DNA of 64,000 bases from Pectobacterium atrosepticum (lineage in GTDB: Bacteria; Pseudomonadota; Gammaproteobacteria; Enterobacterales; Enterobacteriaceae): contig CP036163.1 in assembly GCA_019056595.1 (NCBI GenBank), forward strand, positions 1,240,001-1,304,000. Direction: 5' to 3'. Both the position numbers and the translations under genes were made by a program. The notes beneath the pieces are model-generated. The model was given only the letters and a program-made list of their open reading frames with translations. It did not search any database and was not told the DNA's origin. Below are positions 664-12,548 of the stretch, in pieces. Position 1 is the stretch's first letter. Every line of letters starts with the position of its first letter.

Positions 664-738
664 GTCTCCATAGTTAAACGGATATAACAAGCCCCTCCTA
701 AGGGCTAGTTGCAGGTTCGATTCCTGCTGGGGACACCA
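664..738 (+). tRNA. argW: tRNA-Arg (anticodon CCU)
   Basis: A complete cloverleaf can be drawn. The acceptor stem is GTCTCCA (664-670) with TGGGGAC (728-734). The anticodon loop CTCCTAA carries CCT, the T-arm contains GGTTCGATTCC, and CCA (736-738) is encoded. The sequence is very close to E. coli argW from memory. Its 3' end (from 717) is repeated at 12526-12548, so this tRNA is the attachment site of the neighbouring satellite, and the tRNA remains intact. Confidence 0.95.
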
Positions 739-739
739 T
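717..739. repeat. attL: tRNA 3'-end core, left copy
   Basis: A 23-bp sequence beginning TCGATTCCTGCTGGGGACAC and ending with the CCA plus one T is identical to 12526-12548. The flanking bases differ on both sides (716 T vs 12525 A; 740 A vs 12549 T), which fixes the repeat length. This is the usual signature of a P4-type tyrosine integrase recombining in the T-arm and acceptor stem of a tRNA. Confidence 0.93.
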
Positions 740-899
740 AACCCTATCTTACATGCTCTCTAATAGTCTAAAAAACACTTTAAAAACAACAAGCATAGCC
801 AAAGCGTAGTCTTAGTTGATACCATAAAATCTTGTAGAAGCTATACACAAATGCGTATAAAATCGTGTATACATTTGGTTCGATCTTTTTCTTATACAC

Positions 900-2096
900 A
901 TGCTGCTAACCGACCTCAAAATTAAAAAGGCGAAAGCCCAAGACAAGCCCTACACACTTAATGACGGTGGCGGACTGTCTTTACTGATTGATCCTAAAGG
1001 GACGAAAGGCTGGCGCTTCCGCTATCGGTTTGCCAACAAGCCTAAGCTCATATCGTTTGGCACTTACGATACCGTATCCCTTGCCGATGCCCGTAAGAAA
1101 CGTGATGAAGCCCGATCTATGTTAGCTAATGGCATTAACCCCAGCGATGCACGCAGAGCCGATAAGCTCTCTTTGCTGTTCTCTACGGAAAACACCTTTG
1201 AAGCGGTGGCGAGAGAATGGCACACATCAAAACTCACTACCTGGTCGGAAGGGTACGCCAAAGAAGTTATACACTATCTGGAAAAAGAAATTTTCCCGTT
1301 CCTGGGTAAACGTCCGATAGACCAGATCACGCCGCTTGAACTTTTGGCCGTTCTGCAAAAGATCGAAAAACGCGGAGCATTGGAACAAGCCAGCAAAATC
1401 CGCCGCCGCTGTGGTGAAGTATTCCGTTACGCAGTCGTAACCGGACGTGCTATGTATAATCCAGCGCCCGACCTGGCCAGCGCCATGAACAAGCCAAAGA
1501 ACAATCACTTCCCGTTCCTAACCGAAAGTGAACTACCCGACTTTGTTCAGGCACTCAATAATTACAAAGGAAGCCAGATCACCAAATATGCCACTCAGCT
1601 TTTAATGTTGACCGGTGTCAGAACCATTGAATTACGCGCGGCTGAGTGGGTTGAATTTGATTTAGATAATGCCCTGTGGGAAATACCTAAAGAACGGATG
1701 AAGAAGCGCCGCCCACATTTGGTGCCATTGTCCACGCACGCAATTGCTATTCTGAAAGAACTGAAAGTGCTAACTGGCTATTATCAACTTGTCTTTCCTG
1801 GTCGAAATGACACCAGAAAGCCGATGAGCGATGCCGCGATAAATAAAGTAATCAAAATGCTGGGTTATCACGGCAGACTTACTGGACACGGTTTCCGGCA
1901 TACCATGAGTACCATTTTGCACGAACATGGATATAACAGCGCATGGATTGAAACCCAGCTTGCGCATGTTGATAAAAATTCCATCCGTGGAACTTATAAC
2001 CATGCGCAATATATAGAAAAAAGAAAAATCATGCTCCAGTGGTACAGTAATACCATTTATAAGATCAGCCCCTTAATAGAGGCCGAAAGGGTTTAA
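900..2096 (+). CDS. P4-type tyrosine recombinase (site-specific integrase)
   Basis: The 398-residue product starts with an arm-DNA-binding DUF4102 domain (residues about 1-90, DLKIKKAK...LNDGGGLSLLIDPKGTKGW), then a core-binding region and a catalytic domain. The catalytic residues are visible: Arg in LMLTGVRTIELR, HxxR in HGFRHTMS, a later His in QLAHVD, and the nucleophile Tyr in GTYNHAQY or nearby. It begins 161 bp from attL and reads into the element, as expected for an integrase next to its attachment site. The 740-899 spacer has repeated TGTATA/TATACA motifs that could be integrase arm or excisionase sites. It overlaps the convergent AIPR gene by 4 bp. Confidence 0.95.
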   Translation: MLLTDLKIKKAKAQDKPYTLNDGGGLSLLIDPKGTKGWRFRYRFANKPKLISFGTYDTVSLADARKKRDEARSMLANGINPSDARRADKLSLLFSTENTFEAVAREWHTSKLTTWSEGYAKEVIHYLEKEIFPFLGKRPIDQITPLELLAVLQKIEKRGALEQASKIRRRCGEVFRYAVVTGRAMYNPAPDLASAMNKPKNNHFPFLTESELPDFVQALNNYKGSQITKYATQLLMLTGVRTIELRAAEWVEFDLDNALWEIPKERMKKRRPHLVPLSTHAIAILKELKVLTGYYQLVFPGRNDTRKPMSDAAINKVIKMLGYHGRLTGHGFRHTMSTILHEHGYNSAWIETQLAHVDKNSIRGTYNHAQYIEKRKIMLQWYSNTIYKISPLIEAERV

Positions 2097-3817
2097 TTTC
2101 TTTTGAAATATAATTCGACGGCGTCACGTAAGTCAGAGCTATATTTACCTCGTTTTATTTGATCATCCGTTGGAGTTTCAAGGCTGTCAATTATTTTTTG
2201 ACATATTTTAAAGTACTCAACATATTCATCATTACAGAGGGTTTTTATAATATTAGCGCAATAGGCTGTGATTTTTTTAGAAGAAGGATCCGGAGTTTCT
2301 ACTTTATTGTTGACCACCCATGGATATAACATTGCAATATGCCACCGTAACTTATTATATTTAGGTGCGTCATTTTTCCTGCCATTTATTAATGTATTGT
2401 ATTTATAGCATATATACGCAGCACAATGATATGCACATTCATTGTCGTTGTCTGCAAAAAGTATATCGCTAGTATTCAATACTTTTTTTACATATCTAGA
2501 AGCATCGTGCGGGCGAAATTTAAAAACGGATATAAAACATCTTGCAAGTTCTTTAATGTCATATATTTTTGTATTTTGAATGGATTTGTTTCTATATTCA
2601 CCCTCTCTTCTTTCGAAATACAACTTCTCTTTTGATTCATCATTTCTTTGAATATCAAAAAATTTTTGAATTAATCTAGCCTTTTCTCTTAAAGCATAAA
2701 AAGCTTCATTTTCTACAGCCGATTGGTTGTTTGTCGCTGTAACGATCTCGATGGCTACATCAGTATCTTGAGATTCTATAAATTTCACGATTAACTCAAC
2801 GCTATCATCCAAGATATGGAAGTTTTCAAATAAAGTATTTGTCGTTTGGCATCCATTAATTATCTGATAATTTGTCAAATGCATAACTTTTGTATTTGAT
2901 TGGATTGCAATTTCTGGCGCAATTATGGTCACACCATTATTGAGAACTGAAAATTGTTTGGCCTTATCACTATTGAGAGTGTTAGCTATATCTCTATTTA
3001 CTGGGTTTTCTCCGCCGAGAAATGCACGCACATTCTCGTCAAAAACTTCTTCTCTTATTTTTCCTTCATCGTCCATAGCTATTTTATTAAGAAACTCTTT
3101 TGCTTTTACAATCGATATATATGCTTGGGGTATCCCAGGCATCTCATTGATTCCTATGTAATCAATTAATTGCAATGAAGCCTCATTCTTGTCAGATATA
3201 GACCCCCACATTTTCATTAACTCTTTACGACCTAGTGGAAGCACTTCAATATCATTGAAAATATCGGCTGATTTACAAGTTCTCTCTATGTTCTTGAAGC
3301 TAGCAACAATTTCCCTCTCTTTATTGTATACTCCACTAGTGCAATAAAAAACTTTTAAATTTGGCATTTTGTTTTTTATTTTCTTCACATTAGCCACAAT
3401 GATTTTTATTATTTCAATGACCTGACCATTGTAAATACCATTTGGGAATTTTGGATCCAATGTAAAGAAATCTTGTAAACCAATATTAAAATTCGCTATT
3501 TCATCTTTATAAAAACTCTCGCCTGACTTTGCTTGATTTATTATAATTTCCACAGGCAAAGATGTTTTATGAGTGTCAAAGGCACTTTCAGCATCATCAA
3601 CACTAATGATTAGCTCTCCATCAATGATGATCGCAATTCCATCTAAAGATGCATCGTCTTCTTGAGTTGTTATATCGACAGGGTTAAATCTACCGAGAAA
3701 ATACTTAGAAGTTATAACGTAATTGCAGAAATATTCAAACAGCTTAGACTCATCATGCTCCTGAACTTCAAATTCAGTTGCCAAGTCTTTAACATATTGA
3801 GAAAGTATAGCATGCAT
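2093..3817 (-). CDS. AIPR-family protein (putative abortive-infection phage resistance)
   Basis: This is a 574-residue protein. The central part carries the AIPR signature: an R-A-F-L-G block, then FSVLNNGVTIIA, then YQIINGCQTTNTL, then VTATNNQSAV (about residues 263-375). AIPR (PF10592) was named after Lactococcus abortive-infection proteins. Near the N-terminus, D59-G60 followed by Q95-A-K97 (EIIINQAKSGESF) resembles the D...QxK core of PD-(D/E)xK nucleases; this nuclease reading is inference. A ribosome site (AAGG) lies upstream of the ATG. The gene is strikingly AT-rich compared with its neighbours, a sign of separate transfer. It lies between int and the conserved satellite genes, where P4-like elements are known to carry variable anti-phage cargo. 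It overlaps int tail-to-tail by 4 bp. Confidence 0.85.
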   Translation of the reverse strand: MHAILSQYVKDLATEFEVQEHDESKLFEYFCNYVITSKYFLGRFNPVDITTQEDDASLDGIAIIIDGELIISVDDAESAFDTHKTSLPVEIIINQAKSGESFYKDEIANFNIGLQDFFTLDPKFPNGIYNGQVIEIIKIIVANVKKIKNKMPNLKVFYCTSGVYNKEREIVASFKNIERTCKSADIFNDIEVLPLGRKELMKMWGSISDKNEASLQLIDYIGINEMPGIPQAYISIVKAKEFLNKIAMDDEGKIREEVFDENVRAFLGGENPVNRDIANTLNSDKAKQFSVLNNGVTIIAPEIAIQSNTKVMHLTNYQIINGCQTTNTLFENFHILDDSVELIVKFIESQDTDVAIEIVTATNNQSAVENEAFYALREKARLIQKFFDIQRNDESKEKLYFERREGEYRNKSIQNTKIYDIKELARCFISVFKFRPHDASRYVKKVLNTSDILFADNDNECAYHCAAYICYKYNTLINGRKNDAPKYNKLRWHIAMLYPWVVNNKVETPDPSSKKITAYCANIIKTLCNDEYVEYFKICQKIIDSLETPTDDQIKRGKYSSDLRDAVELYFKRN

Positions 3818-4373
3818 AATAATTACCTTGTTAATTATTATCTAGAAAACGCTAGAGGTTTTAATTCAGATGATATAATTTTTCTTGTCATCTCACATTT
3901 ACTCAATCAATTAGCTCAAAGTAATAAAAAAACCTATCAGCACAATTGAATTGGTTAATTCTTGAAAAGAATAGAGCGCAACATAACATTTATTTTTTAG
4001 AAATAAAATTTAATCCTAAGATAGTTAATTATGTTGATGACATAGTAGCTGAATTTTTTATTCACACATAGCATAACAAAGATCCCATATTTAATGTAGT
4101 AATGAAACCTGCCGAACGGAACACTTTGTTTCTGCTTTTAACCAATTGATAAAAATAGATAATATCCATTTTCCTTCCGCCTCGCTCGTCCAAATGGCTT
4201 ACAAACCCTACTAATAGAACACCAGTAAATAAAAATAAGCATCCACATGACAAAATCGGCACTACACCGCACCCGCCTGCGGTTTTCGGATCATAAAAAT
4301 TTTTCAGTTTTACTTTTCTACAAAACAACCCGCCAGACCGCGCCATATCTGGGCTTGTGCGCTTTGGTGCCAA

Positions 4374-4405
4374 CTGAAATCATTGAAATAAATTTCAGCT
4401 TTTTT
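4374..4405 (+). terminator. Terminator-like hairpin in the gene-free region
   Basis: CTGAAAT (4374-4380) pairs with ATTTCAG (4392-4398), and a six-T run follows at 4400-4405. No gene on the plus strand ends just upstream, so its role is unclear. Confidence 0.4.
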
Positions 4406-4618
4406 CAGTTTTGCCATTTTTTTCTGGTTTTGAAGCCCGCAAAAAATCACGCTATCTCTTTGAATTTAAAGACACTGTATTATTTTTCGTGGCGCGGTGA
4501 AAAATATCAGGCAGGAAAACAAACGTGCCACTGTTCCGGTGATCCCTTGCGGGATCCGGCTTACAGATGAGTAGATGGGGTGGAGTCACTGAAAAACACG
4601 AACAGCCAGATACAAAAA

Positions 4619-4643
4619 AACCCAACTGGTGAGGTTGGGTTTT
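4619..4643. terminator. Bidirectional rho-independent terminator after the Ogr-like gene
   Basis: AACCCAAC (4619-4626) and GTTGGGTT (4634-4641) form a stem with a 7-base loop, with an A-run before it and a T-run after it, so it could work in either direction. It lies about 100 bp beyond the stop of the Ogr/Delta-like gene on the minus strand. Confidence 0.75.
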
Positions 4644-4740
4644 CATCTCTAACCTAAATTAACCATCTAGATTAGAGAACATCATACTTCCACTAACAGC
4701 CGGTAGTTTAATCGCTGTCTACAGGGATAACAACAGCCCG

Positions 4741-5082
4741 TTACCTTTCCCCAACTTTACGCCGCACCACAACCAGAGAACTTTCCGGCTCGTCCACGTT
4801 TTCGGCCTTTTTGTCGTCCTCCTGCGCCTGGTTCAGCATGTCGATCATCTCTTTGCGCTTCTCCGGGGCGATGCCGTCTATCACGCTCTTAATCACATGC
4901 CCGTGAGTTTTAGCACTGGGGCTGAGGGTATGTGAGAACGTCATGTTCATCACGAACGTATGCCCGCATTCCACATCCGCACAGGCGCAGTAAATATCTG
5001 AGATATGCGGGTGCTTACGGTGAGTTTTCTTCACCGTGGCCACCGTGCCGCATTCCGGGCAGTAAACACGCATTATCCTCAT
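4741..5082 (-). CDS. Ogr/Delta-like zinc-finger transcriptional activator
   Basis: The 113-residue protein begins MRIMRVYCPECG and has the Ogr/Delta pattern: CPEC near the N-terminus and a second Cys pair in DIYCACADVECGH, followed by FVMNMTFSHTLSPS. Ogr of P2 and Delta of P4 are Cys4 zinc activators of late phage promoters. P4 Delta has two such units; only one is seen here. The start at 5082 is preferred because GGAAGGAG lies 8 bases upstream, while the upstream in-frame ATG at 5100 has no ribosome site. It is the last gene before the gene-free region. It probably drives satellite capsid and helper late promoters, although I did not locate a binding site. Confidence 0.85.
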   Translation of the reverse strand: MRIMRVYCPECGTVATVKKTHRKHPHISDIYCACADVECGHTFVMNMTFSHTLSPSAKTHGHVIKSVIDGIAPEKRKEMIDMLNQAQEDDKKAENVDEPESSLVVVRRKVGER

Positions 5083-5174
5083 GTCGCTCACTCCTTCCAT
5101 TCTGTTAACCCCGCCCGCCAGAAATAAAGCCCTAACGGACGGCCATTTTTACTGTGTTTATCTTCTCTGCGCGT

Positions 5175-5362
5175 GGATACAGCGGTTACAGTGGTTACAC
5201 GATTGATATAAAAGGGTTTTTACTGTAACCACGCCATTTTCACTACTGGTGACAGCGGTTACAGGTCGTATTTTGTAACCTCTGTCACCACAGGCTATTT
5301 ATTCATGGTGACAACACCAGCCCTTGCCCTACCTGCTTGTCACCTCTGTAACCACTGTATCC
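5175..5362. repeat. Iteron array, candidate replication origin / cis replication region
   Basis: Twelve copies of a 7-bp core GG(T/A)(T/G)ACA occur in 188 bp. Forward copies are at 5175, 5184, 5193, 5248, 5257 and 5307. Reverse copies (TGTNACC/TGTATCC) are at 5224, 5274, 5283, 5338, 5347 and 5356. Within clusters the spacing is exactly 9 bp. The outer clusters mirror each other (GGATACA, GGTTACA, GGTTACA against the complement of TGTCACC, TGTAACC, TGTATCC). From memory, P4 alpha binds TGTTCACC-type iterons in ori1 and crr, and this array lies just past the alpha-like gene. Function is inferred. Confidence 0.8.
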
Positions 5363-5390
5363 TCAGAAAAATAAGATACGTGCGAGAGTA

Positions 5391-8075
5391 TTAACCCAAT
5401 ACGCTGCTATTAAACTGGTACACCCATTTGACGCCTATTTCTGGCAGGCGGATGTTTTTCTGTGTGCGGCTGCTGCCCTCTGCCACATCCAGATAGCCCG
5501 CCCTGACGCAAAGCTGTGCCACCTTCTTGGCATCAAACCCCTTACAGATTTCTTTCCAACCCGATGACAGCACGTAAAACGTGGTGGCGGCATCCTCGGT
5601 GTTGTTGCCTTTCACTACCTGACGGAAACCCACCAAGTTGGCCGGGCGGCTGTACTCGTTGTGCCAGTCGGCAAAGCGGCTGAACTGGTTACGGGTGATG
5701 AAGTCTTTCACCTGCTCCAGCGCGGCGGCTTCCTCCTGATTGGCCACATGGCCACGATCTACCATCCACGCATCCAGACAGACTTTTGCCGCCCGCAGTG
5801 CTTCCCCCGCAGGCCAGCCGGTGATCCCCGCTTCGGTGGCCAGTTCGCCCGCCATCGCGACCAGAGCAAAGCGCGTGACTGCCCGCCCTACCTGGTTACC
5901 TGCATCAGGTGGGGTTAATTCGCGAGTGTAGGTTTTCAGCAACGCTTTGGCTTTGGCCGTCATGCCGGATAAATCCGCCGTGAGATGGCGCAACCATTCG
6001 CGGAACGCCGCGCCATGGTATTCCGTCACTGCCTGTTCTAAATGCTCGGCCAGCGTCTTGCCGCCCGAAAAACCATGCAGTTCTTCAAACACACCGTACT
6101 TGCCCGAATCGCTGGGGATTTGCACCATACGCACTTCTACACCGGCATAAGTACGTTCTCCGGCGTTGGCGGCGTGTTCAACCAGTGACAGTTCGCCTGT
6201 GGAAAGGAACAGCAGACACCAACGATTGGTTTCCCTTACGCTGCCGTCCGTTCTGGCTCTGGCCTTACCCTGGCCGTTAGCCAGCATGTAGGCGATATTT
6301 CCGGCCTCCCGTCCGTCTACCTCACGGATTTCATCGAGCATCAACGTGGCATCATTGCGGCGGCTGGCAGTCCCTTCCAGCGCATTGCCGGTTGACCGCC
6401 AGGTATGCCAGAAGTCCGAACCGCCGCACACTGACGCCGCCACCTTCATGGTGGTGGTTTTGCCATCCGTCGATTCCCCTTTCAAGTGATAGCCGCCACC
6501 GCCCACACCAACCAGCTTTAACAGCGGTGCAGCAAAAGCCAGACTGACGGAGAACGCCACGCGGGCATTACCGACGCAATACCGTGACACCTGATCACGC
6601 CAATCAGCCAACGTTCCCGCAGTGCGAAAATCCCGCCCCTGTACGCTGGACGTTTGCAGAATGACCGATTCCGCCCCCTCACCTATCACCTCGTCCTGGA
6701 GCACGTACACCGAACCGTGCCAGCCGGTTTTACTGACGCATGTCACCTTACGGTCTGGTTTACACAGGGAAAGGTATTCCATCAGGTGCGCCCGTGCCTG
6801 ACCGTTGGTGTTGATGTACGACAAGCCGTTAACCAGCAGTACCCGGCGCAACTCTTCCCCGCTGCCACCTAACAACTCCATCGGCATCGCCCATTTGCGG
6901 CTAATGCCGTTGGTGTCTTCCCATTCCAGCAAGCGGCCGTAGTTGCTGCCGTCCATGTCACAGGTGATAGCCGTCACCCGTACCGGGCTGCACAGTTTGA
7001 TATTGCGAATTTCCGTATCGCCGTCTGACTTGTTCACCAGTTTGTCAAACCACAGGTATTCTTTGGTCAGTCGGAAGCCTTGCGGCAAGCGGGTCTTGCC
7101 CTTGCCAAACAAAATCATTTCTTCGCGCAACGCCTCTTTGGTGCGCTCCTGGCCGTGCTCCTGCCTGAAATCATCCCAATCCGCTTTATGGCGCGTCGGC
7201 GGCAATGTCACCCAACCGTCTACCGCTTTGGCCGCTTTCTCCGCCCACTGTTTCCCGGTGTTTTCCTTGCCGTCGCCAAAATCGTTATCGCCAGCAATCA
7301 CCAACCGCACATCCGGCCAGCGCTGCCGGAACACCTGCGCCACATTCAGCAAGTTACTGGCGGCAACCGCAGCCACCGTGACGCCCTCGGTCAATGCCGC
7401 CACCGTCAGCGCGGTAGCGTAACCCTCGGTGATAGTCACCTGCTCCGGTGCCTCACTCGGCAGCGGTTGCAGAGCAATGAAGCTGCCCGCCAGAATGGAG
7501 TTGGCCAGCAGCCGTTTATCCCCCAATGGGCTGATTAGCTGCGCCCCCGTTATCTGGCCGTCAACGTCAGTCAGCGGCAGCAACAGCGAACCGGCAGGAA
7601 ACACCACGCCACCGCTCTGTTTCTCCTGGCGAGTCAGGGGCAAGCCCTGCCCCGTTAAGCCTTTATTGGTCAGATAGGCGCTTTCGCCGGTTTCACAAGT
7701 CGCCCGCAGTGTGCGATAGCTGGCGCTGAACTGGCGGCGCTTTTCGGCGCCGTCGGCTTCTTTCCTGGCGGGCGGGGTTGTCGGGTGTTGCATCTCCGGT
7801 AAGCCCAGCACAGATGCCACCGCATCGGCGGCAGTTTTGTTGTCGTCGCCGCTGACCAGTTGCACCAAATCCAGCCCGTCACCGTTGCCACACTGCGAAC
7901 AAAACCACGTCCCGCGCCCGTCCTTATCATCAAAGCGGAAACGGTCTGTACCGCCGCATTTCGGGCAAGCGCTATGCTTGCCGTTGGCCGGAACCGTAAT
8001 TCCCAGCGCCGGTAATATCTGCGCCCAGCGGTTATTTGCTGCCTTCACTGTCTCGGAGAGTTTGGGTCTGCTCAT
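5391..8075 (-). CDS. P4-alpha-like primase-helicase replication protein
   Basis: The 894-residue protein has three recognisable parts. An N-terminal zinc domain (about residues 30-75) contains CPKCGGTDRFRFDD and CSQCGNGDGLDLV, as in P4 primases. A Toprim-like region (about 160-310) contains TITEGYATALTVAAL and LVIAGDNDFGDG. A C-terminal DUF927-type helicase has a Walker A-like GESTDGKTTTM (about 535) and a Walker B-like LMLDEI. Such proteins combine primase, 3'-5' helicase and origin recognition, so the satellite can initiate its own replication. The start ATG overlaps the stop of the previous gene (ATGA) with coupling. Its stop is 29 bp from the iteron array it probably binds. Confidence 0.93.
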   Translation of the reverse strand: MSRPKLSETVKAANNRWAQILPALGITVPANGKHSACPKCGGTDRFRFDDKDGRGTWFCSQCGNGDGLDLVQLVSGDDNKTAADAVASVLGLPEMQHPTTPPARKEADGAEKRRQFSASYRTLRATCETGESAYLTNKGLTGQGLPLTRQEKQSGGVVFPAGSLLLPLTDVDGQITGAQLISPLGDKRLLANSILAGSFIALQPLPSEAPEQVTITEGYATALTVAALTEGVTVAAVAASNLLNVAQVFRQRWPDVRLVIAGDNDFGDGKENTGKQWAEKAAKAVDGWVTLPPTRHKADWDDFRQEHGQERTKEALREEMILFGKGKTRLPQGFRLTKEYLWFDKLVNKSDGDTEIRNIKLCSPVRVTAITCDMDGSNYGRLLEWEDTNGISRKWAMPMELLGGSGEELRRVLLVNGLSYINTNGQARAHLMEYLSLCKPDRKVTCVSKTGWHGSVYVLQDEVIGEGAESVILQTSSVQGRDFRTAGTLADWRDQVSRYCVGNARVAFSVSLAFAAPLLKLVGVGGGGYHLKGESTDGKTTTMKVAASVCGGSDFWHTWRSTGNALEGTASRRNDATLMLDEIREVDGREAGNIAYMLANGQGKARARTDGSVRETNRWCLLFLSTGELSLVEHAANAGERTYAGVEVRMVQIPSDSGKYGVFEELHGFSGGKTLAEHLEQAVTEYHGAAFREWLRHLTADLSGMTAKAKALLKTYTRELTPPDAGNQVGRAVTRFALVAMAGELATEAGITGWPAGEALRAAKVCLDAWMVDRGHVANQEEAAALEQVKDFITRNQFSRFADWHNEYSRPANLVGFRQVVKGNNTEDAATTFYVLSSGWKEICKGFDAKKVAQLCVRAGYLDVAEGSSRTQKNIRLPEIGVKWVYQFNSSVLG

Positions 8076-8482
8076 TGCGCCGCTCCTCCCGTCGTCAGCG
8101 TTTCCACCACGGCACCGGGCGGCAATTTGCCATCCGTCGCACCGCTGGCAATATCCTCATACATGGCCGACAGGCATCGGTAGCCATACGCTGACAGGCG
8201 CACCGCCTCACGCATAAAGCCCGGTTCGAGCATTTCATACAGCGCCTGCGCCGCCATCGCTTGCCCCATCGCACAGCCGAACTGGTCGATATAAGGCGCT
8301 TCAATGTGGGAAATGATGTTAATCGCCACCTTGTCGGCGGTCAGTGGAATACAGCGACCGTTCAGCACATATGCCGCCTGGCCGTGTTGGGCTGTCATTG
8401 CTTCAAAGAAAGCGTTAGCGATGTAATGGCGCAAAAGCGCCATTTTGAAAGCCGGTGAGGTCGGCAGGTTAATTGCGCTCAT
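8072..8482 (-). CDS. P4-type operon protein of unknown function
   Basis: This is a 136-residue soluble-looking protein, beginning MSAINLPTSPAFKMALLRHY. It belongs to the kind of small conserved proteins preceding alpha in P4-like elements (similar in size and position to P4 orf151), but I cannot assign a function. A strong ribosome site (GGAGGGG) lies before the ATG at 8482. It overlaps its upstream neighbour by 14 bp and the primase gene by 4 bp (ATGA), so it is translated within one operon. Confidence 0.8.
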   Translation of the reverse strand: MSAINLPTSPAFKMALLRHYIANAFFEAMTAQHGQAAYVLNGRCIPLTADKVAINIISHIEAPYIDQFGCAMGQAMAAQALYEMLEPGFMREAVRLSAYGYRCLSAMYEDIASGATDGKLPPGAVVETLTTGGAAQ

Positions 8483-8705
8483 GGTTCACCCCTCCGGCAA
8501 AGAATTCACTGGTTTCTACCGCACCGTTGAGTTGGTCACGAACACATTCAAAAATAGCGGCCAGGCCGTCTGAATTAAGAGGCTTACCAGGGTGATCGGC
8601 ATGGTGGCGTAACAGCTCGGCCATACACTCGGTGGCCTGTAAAGCGCGATTTATACGCTCTTCACCATTCTGCGTGTAGCCACAAGGAAACTGAGCATTA
8701 GTCAT
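8469..8705 (-). CDS. Small P4-type operon protein of unknown function
   Basis: A 78-residue protein beginning MTNAQFPCGYTQNGEERINRALQ, probably helical. The ATG at 8705 is preferred over the GTG at 8711 because GGAGGG stands 7 bases before it. The gene overlaps the stop of the preceding gene by 8 bp and the start of the next by 14 bp. It could correspond in position to one of the small P4 genes (epsilon, orf88, orf106), but no residue motif supports a choice. Confidence 0.7.
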   Translation of the reverse strand: MTNAQFPCGYTQNGEERINRALQATECMAELLRHHADHPGKPLNSDGLAAIFECVRDQLNGAVETSEFFAGGVNHERN

Positions 8706-8880
8706 GTTCACCCTCCGCTACCGGCTGGTTAAAGGTGCGGTGCAAGCAGTCCAGCCGCTCCGACAGAACAAAGGTCAGCACCTCTTTCACCTGGGACTGA
8801 TCCAACTCAACCAGCGCATACGCCAGCGCCCGGCATTGGTCGATGATTTCTTCCAGATCCAACGGCGTGTTATCAAACAT
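8698..8880 (-). CDS. Small P4-type operon protein (60 residues), unknown function
   Basis: The product begins MFDNTPLDLEEIIDQCRALA and is acidic and probably helical throughout. GAGGGG lies 7 bases upstream of the ATG at 8880, a convincing start. The reading frame also extends upstream as one long open frame to 9429, but that extension crosses the immunity RNA region and has no ribosome site, so I annotate only the short gene. The start overlaps the end of the Icd-like gene by 8 bp (ATGTTTGA), implying translational coupling. Confidence 0.7.
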   Translation of the reverse strand: MFDNTPLDLEEIIDQCRALAYALVELDQSQVKEVLTFVLSERLDCLHRTFNQPVAEGEHD

Positions 8881-9070
8881 GACGCGCCCCCTCAACCGGC
8901 AGACGGCCAGCAAAAGCGAGTACATAGTCACGCGCCAGCAGACGGCGGGCGCTGCGTTCATTCGGGGCAATAACGGTTTCACGGTGCGGAACGGCGTGAA
9001 CATCAGCACGGCGCACAGCCAGAAATAAAAAGACAAATTCGGGGTGAGTATAGCCAGGGGTCGTTGACAT
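8873..9070 (-). CDS. Icd/Kil-like host cell-division inhibitor family protein
   Basis: The 65-residue product contains HPEFVFLFLAVRRAD, HAVPHRETVIA and ARRLLARDYVLAFAGRLP, matching proteins annotated as Icd-like in P4-type elements. P4 kil and the P1/P7 icd genes block cell division when expressed. GGAG lies 8 bases before the ATG at 9070. This ribosome site is part of the CTACTGGAG block complementary to the upstream antisense (seqB-like) segment, so translation as well as transcription may be repressed by the immunity RNA. It is the first gene after the RNA region, the same place as kil in P4. Confidence 0.72.
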   Translation of the reverse strand: MSTTPGYTHPEFVFLFLAVRRADVHAVPHRETVIAPNERSARRLLARDYVLAFAGRLPVEGARHV

Positions 9071-9080
9071 GCGTCAATCT

Positions 9081-9341
9081 CCAGTAGATAGCAAAACTTG
9101 CTACCACCAGAGCTGCAAATCTCTTGAATGGTGGTAGCCCAGACGGGGTTTGCAGTACCGGCTCTACTGGATACCGGCCAGCCCGAAAGCTGCCCCGCCT
9201 GAGCCACCATTGATTCGGTACGGAATAATGCCGTAGAAAATGGGTGCACAAAGGCTACGACACAAAAAAAGACGCAAGGCGCGTCTGGTGTCGCCAGTAG
9301 AATACACGGGCTGCAAATCCCGATTGCCGATTTTGCGGCAA
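9081..9341 (-). ncRNA. P4-type antisense immunity RNA region (CI-like; seqA/seqB/seqC)
   Basis: Read on the minus strand, a leader from about 9341 contains the hairpin TTGCCG/CGGCAA, then a seqA-like block (9322-9294: TTTGCAG ... TCTACTGG) and an intrinsic terminator (9286-9264). Next comes a seqB-like block (9170-9144: CCAGTAGA ... CTGCAAA) complementary to seqA. A seqC-like block (9123-9081) repeats TTTGCAG ... CTACTGG. P4 immunity works this way: CI RNA carries seqB and pairs with seqA and seqC in the nascent transcript to cause early termination. The arms GCTACCACC (9100-9108) and GGTGGTAGC (9130-9138) form a further stem. The exact RNA ends cannot be read from sequence. Confidence 0.75.
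9264..9286 (-). terminator. Attenuator terminator in the immunity leader
   Basis: On the minus strand AGACGC and GCGTCT form a stem with a 5-base loop, followed by seven T. It lies downstream of the seqA-like block and before any gene of the operon, the right place to stop the transcript in the immune state. Confidence 0.8.
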
Positions 9342-9348
9342 CGCGAAA

Positions 9349-9378
9349 ACTATACCCCGCGTATTCTGGCGACAGCAA
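9349..9378 (-). promoter_or_regulatory. Candidate promoter of the satellite replication operon / immunity RNA
   Basis: On the minus strand TTGCTG (9378-9373) and TATAGT (9354-9349) are separated by 18 bp. Initiation would fall near 9341. The predicted transcript then begins just before the first hairpin and the seqA-like block. The match is good but not perfect. Confidence 0.6.
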
Positions 9379-9480
9379 GCAATTTTTATCCGAATCCCCG
9401 TGATTGACCGGGTGTGTTATCGCGTACATAGTGTTTCCTGCTCAGTGACGAGCCATGACGTTAGATGACAAGGGAGTGTT

Positions 9481-9510
9481 ACCCGGTGCCTGCCGCACCG
9501 GGTATTTTTT
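9481..9510 (+). terminator. Hairpin terminator between capsid module and replication operon
   Basis: ACCCGGTGC (9481-9489) and GCACCGGGT (9495-9503) form a 9-bp stem with a 5-base loop, followed by ATTTTTT on the plus strand. The U-run is correct only for plus-strand transcripts; on the minus strand the hairpin sits just after the capsid scaffold gene without a T-run. Confidence 0.65.
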
Positions 9511-9518
9511 GCCTGCGT

Positions 9519-10028
9519 TTAGCCGCCTGAAATCGCGGAATACCAGCCGGACGGTGGCAGCGAAAACTGACAGGGGATCGGCTGACTGAGTCGGCCACGT
9601 TTCCCCCGGCGTGAGAAATACCCGCGATTAACGCTAAAACGCAGACGATCCGTTCCCACACTGGCGGGGCTATCCGTTACCGCCAACCCACTGAGATAAA
9701 ACCGTCCGGCTTCGGGGAAATCCTCTTCAATCTCAATCGAGCAAAACAGCTTTTGCCCTTTCTCGTTGTAGCTGACCAGTTGCGACGTGGGACGGATACG
9801 CACAAACAACCGGGATTCACCATCGATAACCTCATGTTTCACGGCCAACACTTCCCCCAGGTTATCGCCCGTGCGCTTGTGTTCTCCCCAAATCAGCGCG
9901 GTATAACGTGACGGGTTGTAGGTCGCGCCCATGTCTTTTAGCCAGGCCGGATCGATATAGCGTCCGTCAATGGTGACGCCCTCGGTGGCCACGCAAAACC
10001 AGCCGGTAGTTAACTGTGAATCGTTCAT
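9519..10028 (-). CDS. gpO-like capsid protease/scaffold, short form
   Basis: The product (about 169 residues) resembles the N-terminal protease part of P2 gpO (Phage_GPO), from GWFCVATEGVTIDGRYI through ALIWGEHKRTG to YLSGLAVTDSPASVGTDRL. A plausible catalytic triad is visible: Asp in TIDGR, His in WGEHKR and Ser in the DSPAS block. P2 gpO is about 284 residues, so the C-terminal scaffolding half is absent, replaced by a short basic and hydrophobic tail. The ATG at 10028 is chosen because GAGGGAG lies just before it; the GTG at 10040 includes that ribosome site. It sits directly downstream of the capsid gene. Confidence 0.75.
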   Translation of the reverse strand: MNDSQLTTGWFCVATEGVTIDGRYIDPAWLKDMGATYNPSRYTALIWGEHKRTGDNLGEVLAVKHEVIDGESRLFVRIRPTSQLVSYNEKGQKLFCSIEIEEDFPEAGRFYLSGLAVTDSPASVGTDRLRFSVNRGYFSRRGKRGRLSQPIPCQFSLPPSGWYSAISGG

Positions 10029-10036
10029 GTTCTCCC

Positions 10037-11035
10037 TCACGGTAACAACGTAATGGCCTGCTCATCGGCGGCGGCATACAGATAACCATCCCCCAGCGCG
10101 TAGCCCTCATTACGCCAGTAGCTGTGCTCATACACGGAACGGTCATCCACAAACTCCGCCCGGAAATAGCGGCTATGCTTCTGCGTGTAGACGTGCAGGT
10201 TTTCCAGCGTGGTCACGGCCAGTCGTTTACCCGGCATAAACGGCGGAACAAAGGCAAAGCGTCCCGCTACAGAACTGGTGACCATCTGCGCGGCGGCGAG
10301 ATCCGCCGGACGGTCTGCCATATTGAACAACCGTAGCCGCTCCGCCGCCGCCAGCTCTGCACCGACCAACACCACCAGGCGCGGATCTTCGCGTAATCCC
10401 TCTGGTATCTTTTGGGTTATGAGGTGATTGGCCAATGCATCCAGATGTGGGAAATCGCCACCGCTCCCCAGGGTGATCGCATCCGTCAGTGCCTGGGAGC
10501 CGCCATTAAATTGTTTGGCGACGGCATGCCAGCCAAGATTGATATCTTCCCCTTTGGGATATTTGGTAGGGTTGGTTTCCGGGCTGAGAAACGCGCCATT
10601 TAGTCCAATACGCAAAATATCTAACGCCATTGCGCGTTCAAAGAACGCCGCCATCGTCCGGGTGAAGTGGTCAATCCCGCCCACATTGGCAATCAGTGAC
10701 ATTTGCTCATACGACAGCGACGCGCAGGAGTCCGTTTCAACCAGCATGTACGGCGTACCATTGACAGCCAGCGGCTTGTTAAATCGCCCTTCTAGCGCAC
10801 GCCCGGTATGCAAGCTGCTATCACCAAACGTGATCGCCTGGCCGGTTTCCTCTGCCATGTCCATCATGGTAATGCCCTGCATCATCCAACCGGATTCCAG
10901 TAAGGCAATGCGTAATTTATTTTCTGCCTCATCAGATACAGAAAAACTCTTTTTGTTATTGCTTAAATAATTCGCGCCGCGGGTAAAATTACGATGAAAT
11001 TCCCCCGCCAATGCCGGAGCATTAACGTGATGCAT
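10037..11035 (-). CDS. gpN-like P2-family major capsid protein
   Basis: This 332-residue protein matches the P2 gpN family (Phage_cap_P2) along its length: a region with YLSNNKKSFSVSDEAENKLR, then FGDSSLHTGRALEGRF, then LDILRIGLNGAF with its PNPTKYP-like continuation. P2 gpN has about 357 residues. A good ribosome site (AAGGA) lies upstream of the ATG. In a satellite lacking terminase and portal, an own capsid gene suggests that it builds or modifies its capsid and relies on the helper for the rest. It is followed 8 bp later by the short gpO-like gene. Confidence 0.85.
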   Translation of the reverse strand: MHHVNAPALAGEFHRNFTRGANYLSNNKKSFSVSDEAENKLRIALLESGWMMQGITMMDMAEETGQAITFGDSSLHTGRALEGRFNKPLAVNGTPYMLVETDSCASLSYEQMSLIANVGGIDHFTRTMAAFFERAMALDILRIGLNGAFLSPETNPTKYPKGEDINLGWHAVAKQFNGGSQALTDAITLGSGGDFPHLDALANHLITQKIPEGLREDPRLVVLVGAELAAAERLRLFNMADRPADLAAAQMVTSSVAGRFAFVPPFMPGKRLAVTTLENLHVYTQKHSRYFRAEFVDDRSVYEHSYWRNEGYALGDGYLYAAADEQAITLLP

Positions 11036-11072
11036 AAAATATCCTTTTATATGAATGGGGTAATAAGGTGAA

Positions 11073-11942
11073 TTACAGTGTGTCTCGCATCATGCGATTT
11101 TTATCTTGTTCGGCGTTCACCGTCTCGATCATTAACTCCACATAATCATTCACTGGCATGAGTTGGCGAAATAGCTCACCTTCATGGCCGTAATATAAAC
11201 TGCATAACTCAGCCTTTGCGATCCCATTACGGTTTAATTCATATTTATCTATAGGATGACGACAGAGTTTTAATATCTCCTCTACCGCTTTTTGTAATTC
11301 ATCCATCTTTGACCAGGCATAAATATGAGACTTACTGCTTAGGCCATTAGAATAGGAATCCATCCTGTAGGAATATGCAGGCAACGAGGCAACTGGCAGT
11401 TTCTCCATGACCTTGTTCATAAAACCTTTGATATTCTTTTTCAGCATCGCTTCCACAACAGGGCGCAATAAACCCAATAACCCCTGCCGCGCCTGATAGA
11501 TTAATTTAGCCTTTTCGTGATTGTCCTCCGCACGCTGCCGCTGCACTTGTAATTGTCTCAATGCCTCTTTCATCGAGACAAGGCCTTGCCGGGTATCAAG
11601 TACATTGTGATTAGGATTAGGATTAGGATTATCCGCTTCACCACCGTAGCGGAGAACGCCTTGATGGGCTTCATTAAACGCTTCCTGTGCCGCCTCACAA
11701 ATCGCCGTACCACGCTCAATCAGGAAGTTGATTTCGTCCGGGTCACACATGTAGCTGGGCATGTTATAGCCCGTCAGCGTTTCCAACTCGGCTAATGAAC
11801 GCTCCATTTTAAACAGGCGATAAATCTCAATGACGCGGATCGCATAACCGCCATCCCCGTATTTAGGTTCAAATGGAACCAGCTGATAAGCCGAAATGAC
11901 ATTCAAGGTTTTATCATATTTACAGCGTTCTATTTTTTTCAT
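11073..11942 (-). CDS. Unknown satellite protein, largely helical
   Basis: I do not recognise this 289-residue protein. It has a helical, partly coiled-coil-like middle (MKEALRQLQVQRQRAEDNHEK region), a low-complexity PNPNPNPN stretch near residue 108 encoded by an ATTAGG-type hexamer repeat (11607-11632), and two basic segments. The start at 11942 is preferred because it follows the alpA stop by 4 bases with an AAGGAA, while the upstream in-frame codon at 11957 is a GTG overlapping alpA. It sits between alpA and the capsid gene in an operon-like series. A role in capsid assembly, like P4 Sid, is possible but unsupported by sequence. Confidence 0.65.
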   Translation of the reverse strand: MKKIERCKYDKTLNVISAYQLVPFEPKYGDGGYAIRVIEIYRLFKMERSLAELETLTGYNMPSYMCDPDEINFLIERGTAICEAAQEAFNEAHQGVLRYGGEADNPNPNPNHNVLDTRQGLVSMKEALRQLQVQRQRAEDNHEKAKLIYQARQGLLGLLRPVVEAMLKKNIKGFMNKVMEKLPVASLPAYSYRMDSYSNGLSSKSHIYAWSKMDELQKAVEEILKLCRHPIDKYELNRNGIAKAELCSLYYGHEGELFRQLMPVNDYVELMIETVNAEQDKNRMMRDTL

Positions 11943-11946
11943 TTCC

Positions 11947-12165
11947 TTACTCCGCACTTTTCCTATTTACCAGATTGCTATTAATCCAATCGATAATTTC
12001 CTGCTCCACCCATGCCACCGTTCTTTCCCCGATCGATACATTAAGCGGGAATCGACCATCCTTCATTCGATGATAAATCGTTGAACGAGGAAGCCCCGTT
12101 TTAGACATTACATCCCTCAGACGGATTAACCGTATCTCTTTGTTTTTAATCAATGAAGCATCCAT
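11947..12165 (-). CDS. AlpA-family transcriptional regulator
   Basis: The product (about 72 residues) has the AlpA winged-helix signature IRLIRLRDVMSKTGLPRSTIYHRMKDGRFP followed by a conserved Trp (VAWVEQEIIDWI). AlpA-type proteins act as activators and excisionase-like directionality factors in satellites and cryptic prophages. The start at 12165 has AAGG 7 bases upstream; two other in-frame starts (12171, 12180) are possible. It is the gene closest to attR, fitting a role in excision. Confidence 0.85.
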   Translation of the reverse strand: MDASLIKNKEIRLIRLRDVMSKTGLPRSTIYHRMKDGRFPLNVSIGERTVAWVEQEIIDWINSNLVNRKSAE

Positions 12166-12330
12166 AGCCATACCTTCCACACATTTATTTGAGATGCACG
12201 TTCCCTCTGAGATTAATTCAGATTCAAAAGGAGTTCGTAAGATGTATATAGATTTACATGGCGGGATTTTGTTGTAAATAGGGGTAGTCAGGTGAGAGTC
12301 ATTATTTAAAGGTCTAATAATTCATATTGG

Positions 12331-12380
12331 CATATATTCAGCAATATTCAGTAATATCCAGTAATATCCAGTAATATTCG
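12331..12380. repeat. Tandem 10-bp repeats near attR
   Basis: Five tandem 10-base units occur: CATATATTCA, GCAATATTCA, GTAATATCCA, GTAATATCCA, GTAATATTCG. A 10-base period places each unit on the same face of the helix. They lie about 150 bp upstream of alpA and 145 bp from attR, so they could be AlpA operators or recombination accessory sites (inferred). The rest of 12181-12667 is AT-rich without genes, apart from attR. Confidence 0.8.
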
Positions 12381-12525
12381 TCCTAGAAGCACCAATGGTA
12401 ACAAAATGTAAAAAAAAGATAGTGCCCGAGAATTACACATCTTTGAAAATAAGTATAAGAGCATGTATAGTAAAATTTATCGAACGACAAAAACTAAATT
12501 AAAAACAATAAATTAAACCATAAAA

Positions 12526-12548
12526 TCGATTCCTGCTGGGGACACCAT
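12526..12548. repeat. attR: tRNA 3'-end core, right copy
   Basis: Identical over 23 bp to 717-739 (argW T-arm to CCA). The preceding sequence is not tRNA-like, so this is the duplicated fragment left by integration and marks the right end of the satellite. Confidence 0.92.

Follow-up and report, generated by a model that had tools for sequence, protein, structure and literature searches.

We conclude, with a probability that we put at roughly 0.9, that the minus-strand region around the start of a kil/Icd-like gene in the window (the whole 64,000-nucleotide stretch of Pectobacterium atrosepticum DNA analysed here) serves an integrated P4-like satellite as its immunity region and is of the kind known from P4 CI and P1 C4, with a short RNA that appears to recognise the early genes of the satellite itself and to shut them down. 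Support for an immunity region is strong and its recognition words can be named; the locus reads as a well-preserved C4/CI immunity locus, predicted to have an immunity specificity of its own. Tommasini et al. 2023 (PMC10111431) already describe C4/CI immunity and the use of Rfam to detect it, Hershko-Shalev et al. 2016 (PMC4825925) give the equivalence of IsrK and seqA, and Weinberg et al. 2010 (PMC2864571) list C4 and c4-a1b1 as motifs; the new points are the size of the word repertoire and a frame-shifted Eta-like open reading frame (ORF).

All parts of the region lie on the minus strand, and each block of the seqA/seqB/seqC arrangement proposed from the sequence alone was found at the position given for it. 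Behind a candidate early promoter (9349..9378) the leader opens with a hairpin read in the sequence at 9342-9323. It matches the Rfam family isrK over 9265..9342 (RF01394, 71.2 bits against a cut-off of 50), an isrK-type short leader RNA that corresponds to the seqA region and has an intrinsic terminator as its 3' end, and the c4-a1b1 target segment over 9303..9355 (RF03163, 48.7 bits, cut-off 46.7). The leader holds two target words, b1 (TTTGCAG, 9311..9317), which lies in a hairpin loop and is a 7-nt complement of the b' word of the antisense RNA, and a1 (TCTACTGG, 9294..9301), an 8-nt complement of its a' loop. The intrinsic terminator that had been claimed after the seqA-like block was recovered by a terminator scan as a stem-loop-stem at 9286-9270 followed by T6, and its pairs are also present in the isrK alignment. 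The seqB block is the C4/CI antisense RNA (9127..9214), which matches RF01695 at 80.9 bits (cut-off 45) over positions 1-87 of the 87-position model. It consists of an outer stem, a P2 hairpin, a P3 hairpin with the a' loop (TATCCAGTAGAG, 9162..9173; an anti-Shine-Dalgarno UCC plus a variable word) and the b' junction (ACTGCAAA, 9149..9156), both words being assigned by C4 parsing and by the own-versus-permuted test described below. The seqC block carries b2 (TTTGCAG, 9113..9119), again a 7-nt complement of b', and a2 (TCTACTGGA, 9088-9080, in the feature 9079..9088), a 9-nt complement of a'. The antisense block is therefore complementary to both its upstream (seqA) and its downstream (seqC) targets, over 7 and 7 nt for b and over 8 and 9 nt for a. 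As had been suggested, the third block includes the ribosome site of the Icd/Kil-like gene, a2 overlapping the kil Shine-Dalgarno GGAG at 9082-9079. The first gene of the early transcript is this kil/Icd-like gene (8873..9070, ATG at 9070), whose 65-aa product matches NCBIfam NF033153 at 74.9 bits (cut-off 25) and positions 138-201 of PHROG 6928.

The isrK, c4-a1b1 and C4 matches all exceed the curated Rfam cut-offs, and the families C4 and isrK have equal claim on the region. The C4 segment folds at -47.6 kcal/mol (z -5.0), a stability reached by 0 of 200 shuffled sequences, and the isrK segment alone folds only moderately better than its shuffles (z -1.6, 14 of 200 as good). When positions 8873-9500 were compared by blastn with 50,697 phage records, three P4 records came out best, with 72.6% identity over 71% of the query; the aligned place in P4 is annotated as 'cI gene product' in one record and as 'put. 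ash gene' in another. The P4 cI region, put through the same Rfam search, matches C4 at 74.9 bits and isrK at 60.8 bits, with no c4-a1b1 match above the cut-off. Because blastn and Rfam agree, we regard the region as homologous to the CI region of P4, its parts going under the names C4 and isrK in Rfam, which upholds the P4-type identity proposed by the sequence-only reading. P4 and the window share the order of parts, the C4 and isrK matches and a 65-aa kil-like gene; they differ in their words, those of P4 being TATCCTGTGAAG (a') and ATTCTCAC (b').

A promoter-like TTGCTG-N18-TATAGT had been described, here a candidate PLE-like early promoter, and both boxes are in place (-35 at 9378-9373, 18-nt spacer, -10 at 9354-9349); however, the -35 box is poor, matching TTGACA at 3 of 6 positions where the limit of a simple sigma-70 scan is 4, and the scan does not list 9349..9378. 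A promoter resting on the consensus scan alone was accordingly dropped. We keep the putative promoter because it lies just before the isrK start and because TATAGT or TATATT is retained at the -10 place, as judged by eye, in all 13 of the listed sequences that extend this far, one of them the window (the listed P4 sequence starts after it).

The deciding evidence on the pairing comes from the variation of the words among relatives. Of 394 genomes sampled from the order, 83 have C4 matches. The locus set was made up of 132 loci among the C4 matches listed, 12 of 13 further loci (2 duplicates) and P4, leaving out L133 (at a contig end), L137 and L143 (the same loci as L009 and L053) and L136 from Yersinia aldovae, where no C4 was found within 2500 nt upstream of the primase. 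The a' loops were delimited with a template parser for C4; parsing with RNAfold was dropped as it gave spurious pairs within the loop. The resulting 142 loci yield 131 distinct a'/b' signatures, with 120 a' loops and 47 b' junctions. For each signature we took the longest Watson-Crick run, G-U pairs earning no credit, between the word and its own upstream 260 nt or downstream 170 nt, and compared the mean with 5000 permutations of the words among loci. Over the 131 signatures, the a' word pairs with its own upstream region over a mean of 7.31 nt (permuted 5.09) and with its own downstream region over 7.76 nt (permuted 4.98); the corresponding values for b' are 6.89 nt (permuted 4.77) and 6.73 nt (permuted 4.51). 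In all four tests z lies between 26 and 33 and the observed mean was reached in 0 of 5000 permutations. Single loci depart from this pattern: a match of at least 7 nt is absent for a' upstream in 43 and downstream in 31 of the 131 signatures, and for b' in 11 and 20, respectively.

The permutation preserves words and targets and not relatedness, a gap that is partly met by a close pair of loci, as the window and its nearest relative, the Pectobacterium polonicum locus L134, differ in their words and are both complementary. The primases of the two are 98% identical, and no difference is seen at any of the 54 positions that make up the four tabulated blocks of C4 outside the words. Outside all words the loci agree at 346 of 385 positions and inside the six words at 25 of 45, the words having changed at all three places; each word set is complementary within itself, with one G-U pair, judged by eye, in the a1 pairing of L134. 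The prediction that the pairing of seqB with seqA and seqC would be kept by compensatory change in relatives is thus borne out both by the 131 signatures and by the nearest relative, and the absence of such changes, which had been named as the finding that would speak against an immunity RNA, was not what we observed. We also considered whether the words are the most variable part of the region and rejected this: across an alignment of 22 loci the fraction of differing positions is 0.50-0.57 in the a words and 0.42-0.44 in the b words, whereas the overall fraction is 0.43 and that for the start of kil 0.52. The words change faster only than the surrounding parts of C4 (0.00-0.24 differing in the same loci).

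The repertoire of words is large. The proposal of a distinct immunity group fits the words of the window, whose a'+b' pair differs from that of P4, from those of the two other C4 copies in the same genome and from those of the other 74 Pectobacterium loci. Taken by itself, the window a' word is almost the same as those of L069 and L083, two loci that come from other genera and have different b' words; their a' words match both window targets over at least 8 nt, and are two of the 41 cases, among 17030 target-word combinations, in which a foreign a' word matches both targets of a locus over at least that length. Within Pectobacterium, C4 was found in 25 of the 25 same-genus genomes searched (75 matches, one below the cut-off), and the 75 loci carry 31 signatures. 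In a wider set of 212 loci, where L134/L158 and L135/L150 are counted twice with distinct counts unaffected, 154 pairs are made up from 137 a' loops and 53 b' junctions. Thirteen a' words occur with at least two b' words and 24 b' words with at least two a' words, a few of these multi-partner words differing only in the parser's junction cut; the two words thus assort as modules. We found no paper on the diversity of the a'/b' words in a literature search covering titles and the starts of abstracts, in which subscription journals are poorly represented.

Some C4 copies have the upstream target only. This holds for many loci of G166 and G276 (Xenorhabdus) and, in Pectobacterium, for copies of the TTTAGGT-, TTTGGTA- and AACTTGG-type. 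G276 has ten parsed C4 loci (L016, L036, L039, L052, L053, L064, L090, L108, L115 and L122), all with different a' loops, and in nine of the ten the best upstream match falls between -47 and -50 and any downstream a' run is shorter than 7 nt. In G397, G398 and G416 we observed pairs of C4 copies about 640 nt apart with the upstream target only (L186/L204, L196/L202, L203/L207 and L193/L206); L202 and L204, two copies in one genome, have identical words. A third C4 region of the window's own genome (L003, G000:C1:71842-71927), with no isrK match above the cut-off, lies on a 112-kb contig that might perhaps be a plasmid or other extrachromosomal element. We do not claim that co-resident elements avoid shared words. 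The a'+b' pair is shared in 0 of 131 within-genome and 4 of 357 same-genus pairs, and a' alone in 1 of 131 and 13 of 357, numbers too small for a verdict. In Pectobacterium one of 114 pairs showed sharing where 6.15 were expected, a value as low as this arising in 72 of 10000 permutations, but orthologs sitting at the same site would produce such a pattern as well.

Folding predictions suggest two competing structures in the leader. In an alternative anti-C4 hairpin (9100..9138), which holds b2 in its loop, positions 9138-9129 on the 3' side of the outer stem of C4 are predicted to pair with 9109-9100, beyond b2; the 46-nt segment folds at -19.2 (z -3.6). The strands of this hairpin coevolve, with an own pairing of 6.50 nt against 5.04 in permutations (maximum 5.44 of 5000), and in the 96 loci whose signatures have both a2 and b2 matches the segment has a mean fold z of -2.86 and the stretch from b2 to the start codon one of -2.01. 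In the minimum-free-energy fold of the full window leader, the GGAG is fully paired, each of its four bases having a partner in 9109-9112. Display of the b words in hairpins is widespread: of the 124 loci with a b1 match of at least 6 nt, 121 have strands on either side of b1 that can form a stem of 4 bp or more, and the same holds for b2 in 54 of 116, against 15% of random positions. As the C4 outer stem and the anti-C4 hairpin are mutually exclusive, the leader looks like a switch between C4 and anti-C4 structures. To what had been read in the sequence, these predictions add a candidate b2-displaying hairpin that competes with C4.

A comparable two-structure model is in print for Gifsy-1 IsrK (PMC4825925), where IsrK is presented as a structural homologue of P4 SeqA and its effect as the activation of the downstream orf45-anrP, not immunity. 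The window resembles Gifsy-1 IsrK (and STnc1160) in its isrK match and in the combination of a short terminated leader with a read-through RNA bearing complementary words, which raises the alternative of an IsrK-like circuit, where the short leader RNA binds the C4 segment of its own read-through mRNA and activates translation of the first gene. The family match at 71.2 bits, the a/b words common to the leader and seqC, by which the leader could act as a decoy for C4, and the alternative structures predicted in the window are all in keeping with such a circuit. However, P4 seqA is also an isrK match at 60.8 bits, so the family does not discriminate, and the downstream genes are P4-like: they differ from those of Gifsy-1 (compared without alignment), fall into other families or none, and gave no match to orf45-anrP-antQ among the proteins scanned with Pfam, NCBIfam and PHROGs. 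We consider this circuit unlikely as an alternative to immunity, and the two models are compatible with each other.

We propose that the immunity region works as follows, reasoning from P4 and P1. Transcription would start at the early promoter, which would be constitutive, and the C4 segment would be cut out of the read-through transcript and pair with seqA and seqC of the satellite's own and of incoming transcripts, with superinfection immunity as the expected effect. Pairing at seqA would favour termination after about 80 nt; pairing at seqC would block translation of kil and thereby bring transcription to a stop before the replication genes. The anti-C4 hairpin and the hairpin hiding the Shine-Dalgarno sequence would probably decide, on the nascent transcript, between the yield of C4 and the translation of kil. 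On transcripts from an upstream late promoter, an Eta-like ORF would probably be translated, and the moving ribosomes would shield the late transcript from the immunity RNA and allow late read-through.

A system of the P1/P7 type would use the same RNA in another way, silencing an icd-antirepressor mRNA at its ribosome site without regulated termination of transcription. The window RNA belongs to the same Rfam family and clan as P1/P7 C4, the downstream gene is Icd-like and a2 overlaps the Shine-Dalgarno sequence; in P1/P7 as well, according to PMC5320573, an a' loop and a b' junction are the pairing words and one of them acts over a ribosome site. We nevertheless judge this reading very unlikely, given that scans of downstream proteins with Pfam, NCBIfam or PHROGs turned up no antirepressor (ant), that an intrinsic terminator directly follows seqA, and that the best phage alignments are to P4 records; compared by description, the window holds a satellite with a terminator after seqA and not a P1-like plasmid phage. 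The C4-like sRNAs of Acinetobacter baumannii share the C4 fold and variable a' words (PMC5320573), and differ in that many strongly expressed copies are present in one genome, whereas the window copy sits in a satellite with both targets in cis.

The Eta/Ash-like ORF (8698..9429, minus strand, 243 aa) covers the entire arrangement. It starts upstream of the promoter, spans the whole immunity RNA, crosses kil out of frame and ends together with the next gene, a 60-aa gene (8698..8880, minus strand, PHROG 16030) whose ATG overlaps the kil stop and which is in frame with the long ORF. The ORF matches Pfam PF10554 (Ash) at 96.5 bits and positions 39-154 of PHROG 6928, so that this PHROG is divided between two frames of the window, with positions 138-201 in kil. 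Eta of P4, described by Forti in 1999, is reportedly a long ORF through the immunity region, in frame with kil, whose translation leads to the passage of late transcripts. PMC10111431 likewise states that eta translation across the immunity region lets late transcripts pass. The P4 eta-like frame is in frame with kil in our analysis, and the window differs from P4 in that its ORF is shifted to +1.

In 109 loci, namely those having a start codon and an a2 run of 7 nt or more (duplicates kept), we counted the frames that stay open between a point 150 nt before C4 and kil. The kil frame is open in 50 loci, against 3.2 expected from shuffles, the +1 frame in 8 (2.7 expected) and the +2 frame in 3 (3.3 expected); because the kil frame is open in only 50 of 109, we treat eta as a variable, non-core feature. 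The open frame is +1 relative to kil in the window, L134, L135, L001 and L013, all from Pectobacterium, and we rejected the notion that the +1 frame is confined to this genus, as four of the eight +1 loci (L009, L014, L055 and L094) belong elsewhere. Of the Pectobacterium loci, 58 could be evaluated: 26 have +1 as their open frame, 5 have +2, 0 have the kil frame and 27 have none open; 9 of the 26 with +1 have an ORF of less than 40 aa after the chosen ATG, which makes the frame relative to kil unsure, and the loci with a kil of 63-67 aa are +1 in 17 of 17. From C4 to the kil start, the window and L134 differ by a one-base gap each way (net 0), and the window and L135 by a four-base gap and an opposite one-base gap (net 3). 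The +1 frame is thus maintained through small insertions and deletions, and the shift of the Ash/Eta frame from kil in Pectobacterium is a further feature that this follow-up adds to the predicted picture.

Upstream of kil, differences in the Eta frame are distributed over the three codon positions as 73/68/59 in three Pectobacterium pairs and as 242/226/239 in 12 pairs of six relatives, totals restricted to pairs above 75% identity (3 of 6 Pectobacterium pairs and 3 of 15 others are omitted). As a control, kil shows the third-position excess of a protein gene, with 11/9/25 and 222/198/513 over all pairs of the same sets minus L001; the pairs are non-independent and these counts are descriptive. 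Judged by these substitutions, the long Ash/Eta frame seems to be kept open with no sign of constraint on its amino acids, and the simplest reading is that selection would act on the passage of ribosomes and not on an Eta/Ash protein. That an Ash-family or 'transcriptional repressor' protein does the repressing, with the RNA resemblance secondary, is highly improbable: the PF10554 score, the PHROG 6928 label 'transcriptional repressor' and a frame open far beyond chance agree with it, and the near-equal substitutions over the codon positions, unlike those of kil, and the strong coevolution of RNA pairing argue against it.

The family labels attached to this ORF probably reflect an RNA, both for Pfam Ash and for the PHROG 'repressor'. 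PF10554 matches the cI ORF of P4 (P4 X51522, L033:1669-2085) and not the P4 epsilon protein, which matches another family, PF25738. A survey of P4-like satellites gives PF10554 as the profile for epsilon (PMC8628076); given our matches, this epsilon marker probably tracks the immunity RNA region. A broader reading joins these observations: a hypervariable, modular a'+b' RNA address would set immunity groups across Enterobacterales, the ORF would be kept for its translation and not its protein, out of frame with kil in Pectobacterium, and the Ash and 'transcriptional repressor' families would largely be translational shadows of the RNA. We regard the odds on this combination as about even. If it is true, late transcripts pass their own immunity RNA through translation of the ORF. 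As the words coevolve at three places over the 131 signatures, the immunity groups of satellites and prophages should be predictable from sequence, in a manner open to test.

The P4-like satellite that carries the region is about 11.8 kb long (717..12548) and is defined by its gene set and by 23-bp direct repeats at 717-739, the 3' end of tRNA-Arg CCT, and 12526-12548; its size is similar to that of P4, whose record has 11,624 bases. Its genes include an integrase, an AIPR gene, an Ogr/Delta zinc finger, a DUF927 primase-helicase, P2-type gpO and gpN, and AlpA, with no match to psu among the element proteins scanned with Pfam. The genes scanned downstream of the immunity region comprise two small genes with PHROGs lacking an assigned function, a DUF5375-like protein (below the cut-off, 23.2 against 30 bits) and the P4-type primase-helicase. 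The P2-type scaffold gene (GPO, only 173 aa) and major capsid gene (gpN), at 9519-11035, adjoin the immunity region on its upstream side and share its strand, where P4 has the divergent sid and delta. The satellite may itself provide a capsid protein. A strong plus-strand hairpin followed by T6 (9480-9504), located between gpO and the Eta-like ORF, is a predicted terminator for plus-strand transcripts. An AIPR-family protein (PF10592, 2093-3817) is encoded between the integrase and Ogr/Delta; it has a weak match, far below the cut-off, to MzaE of an anti-phage system, and the gene is possible defence cargo.
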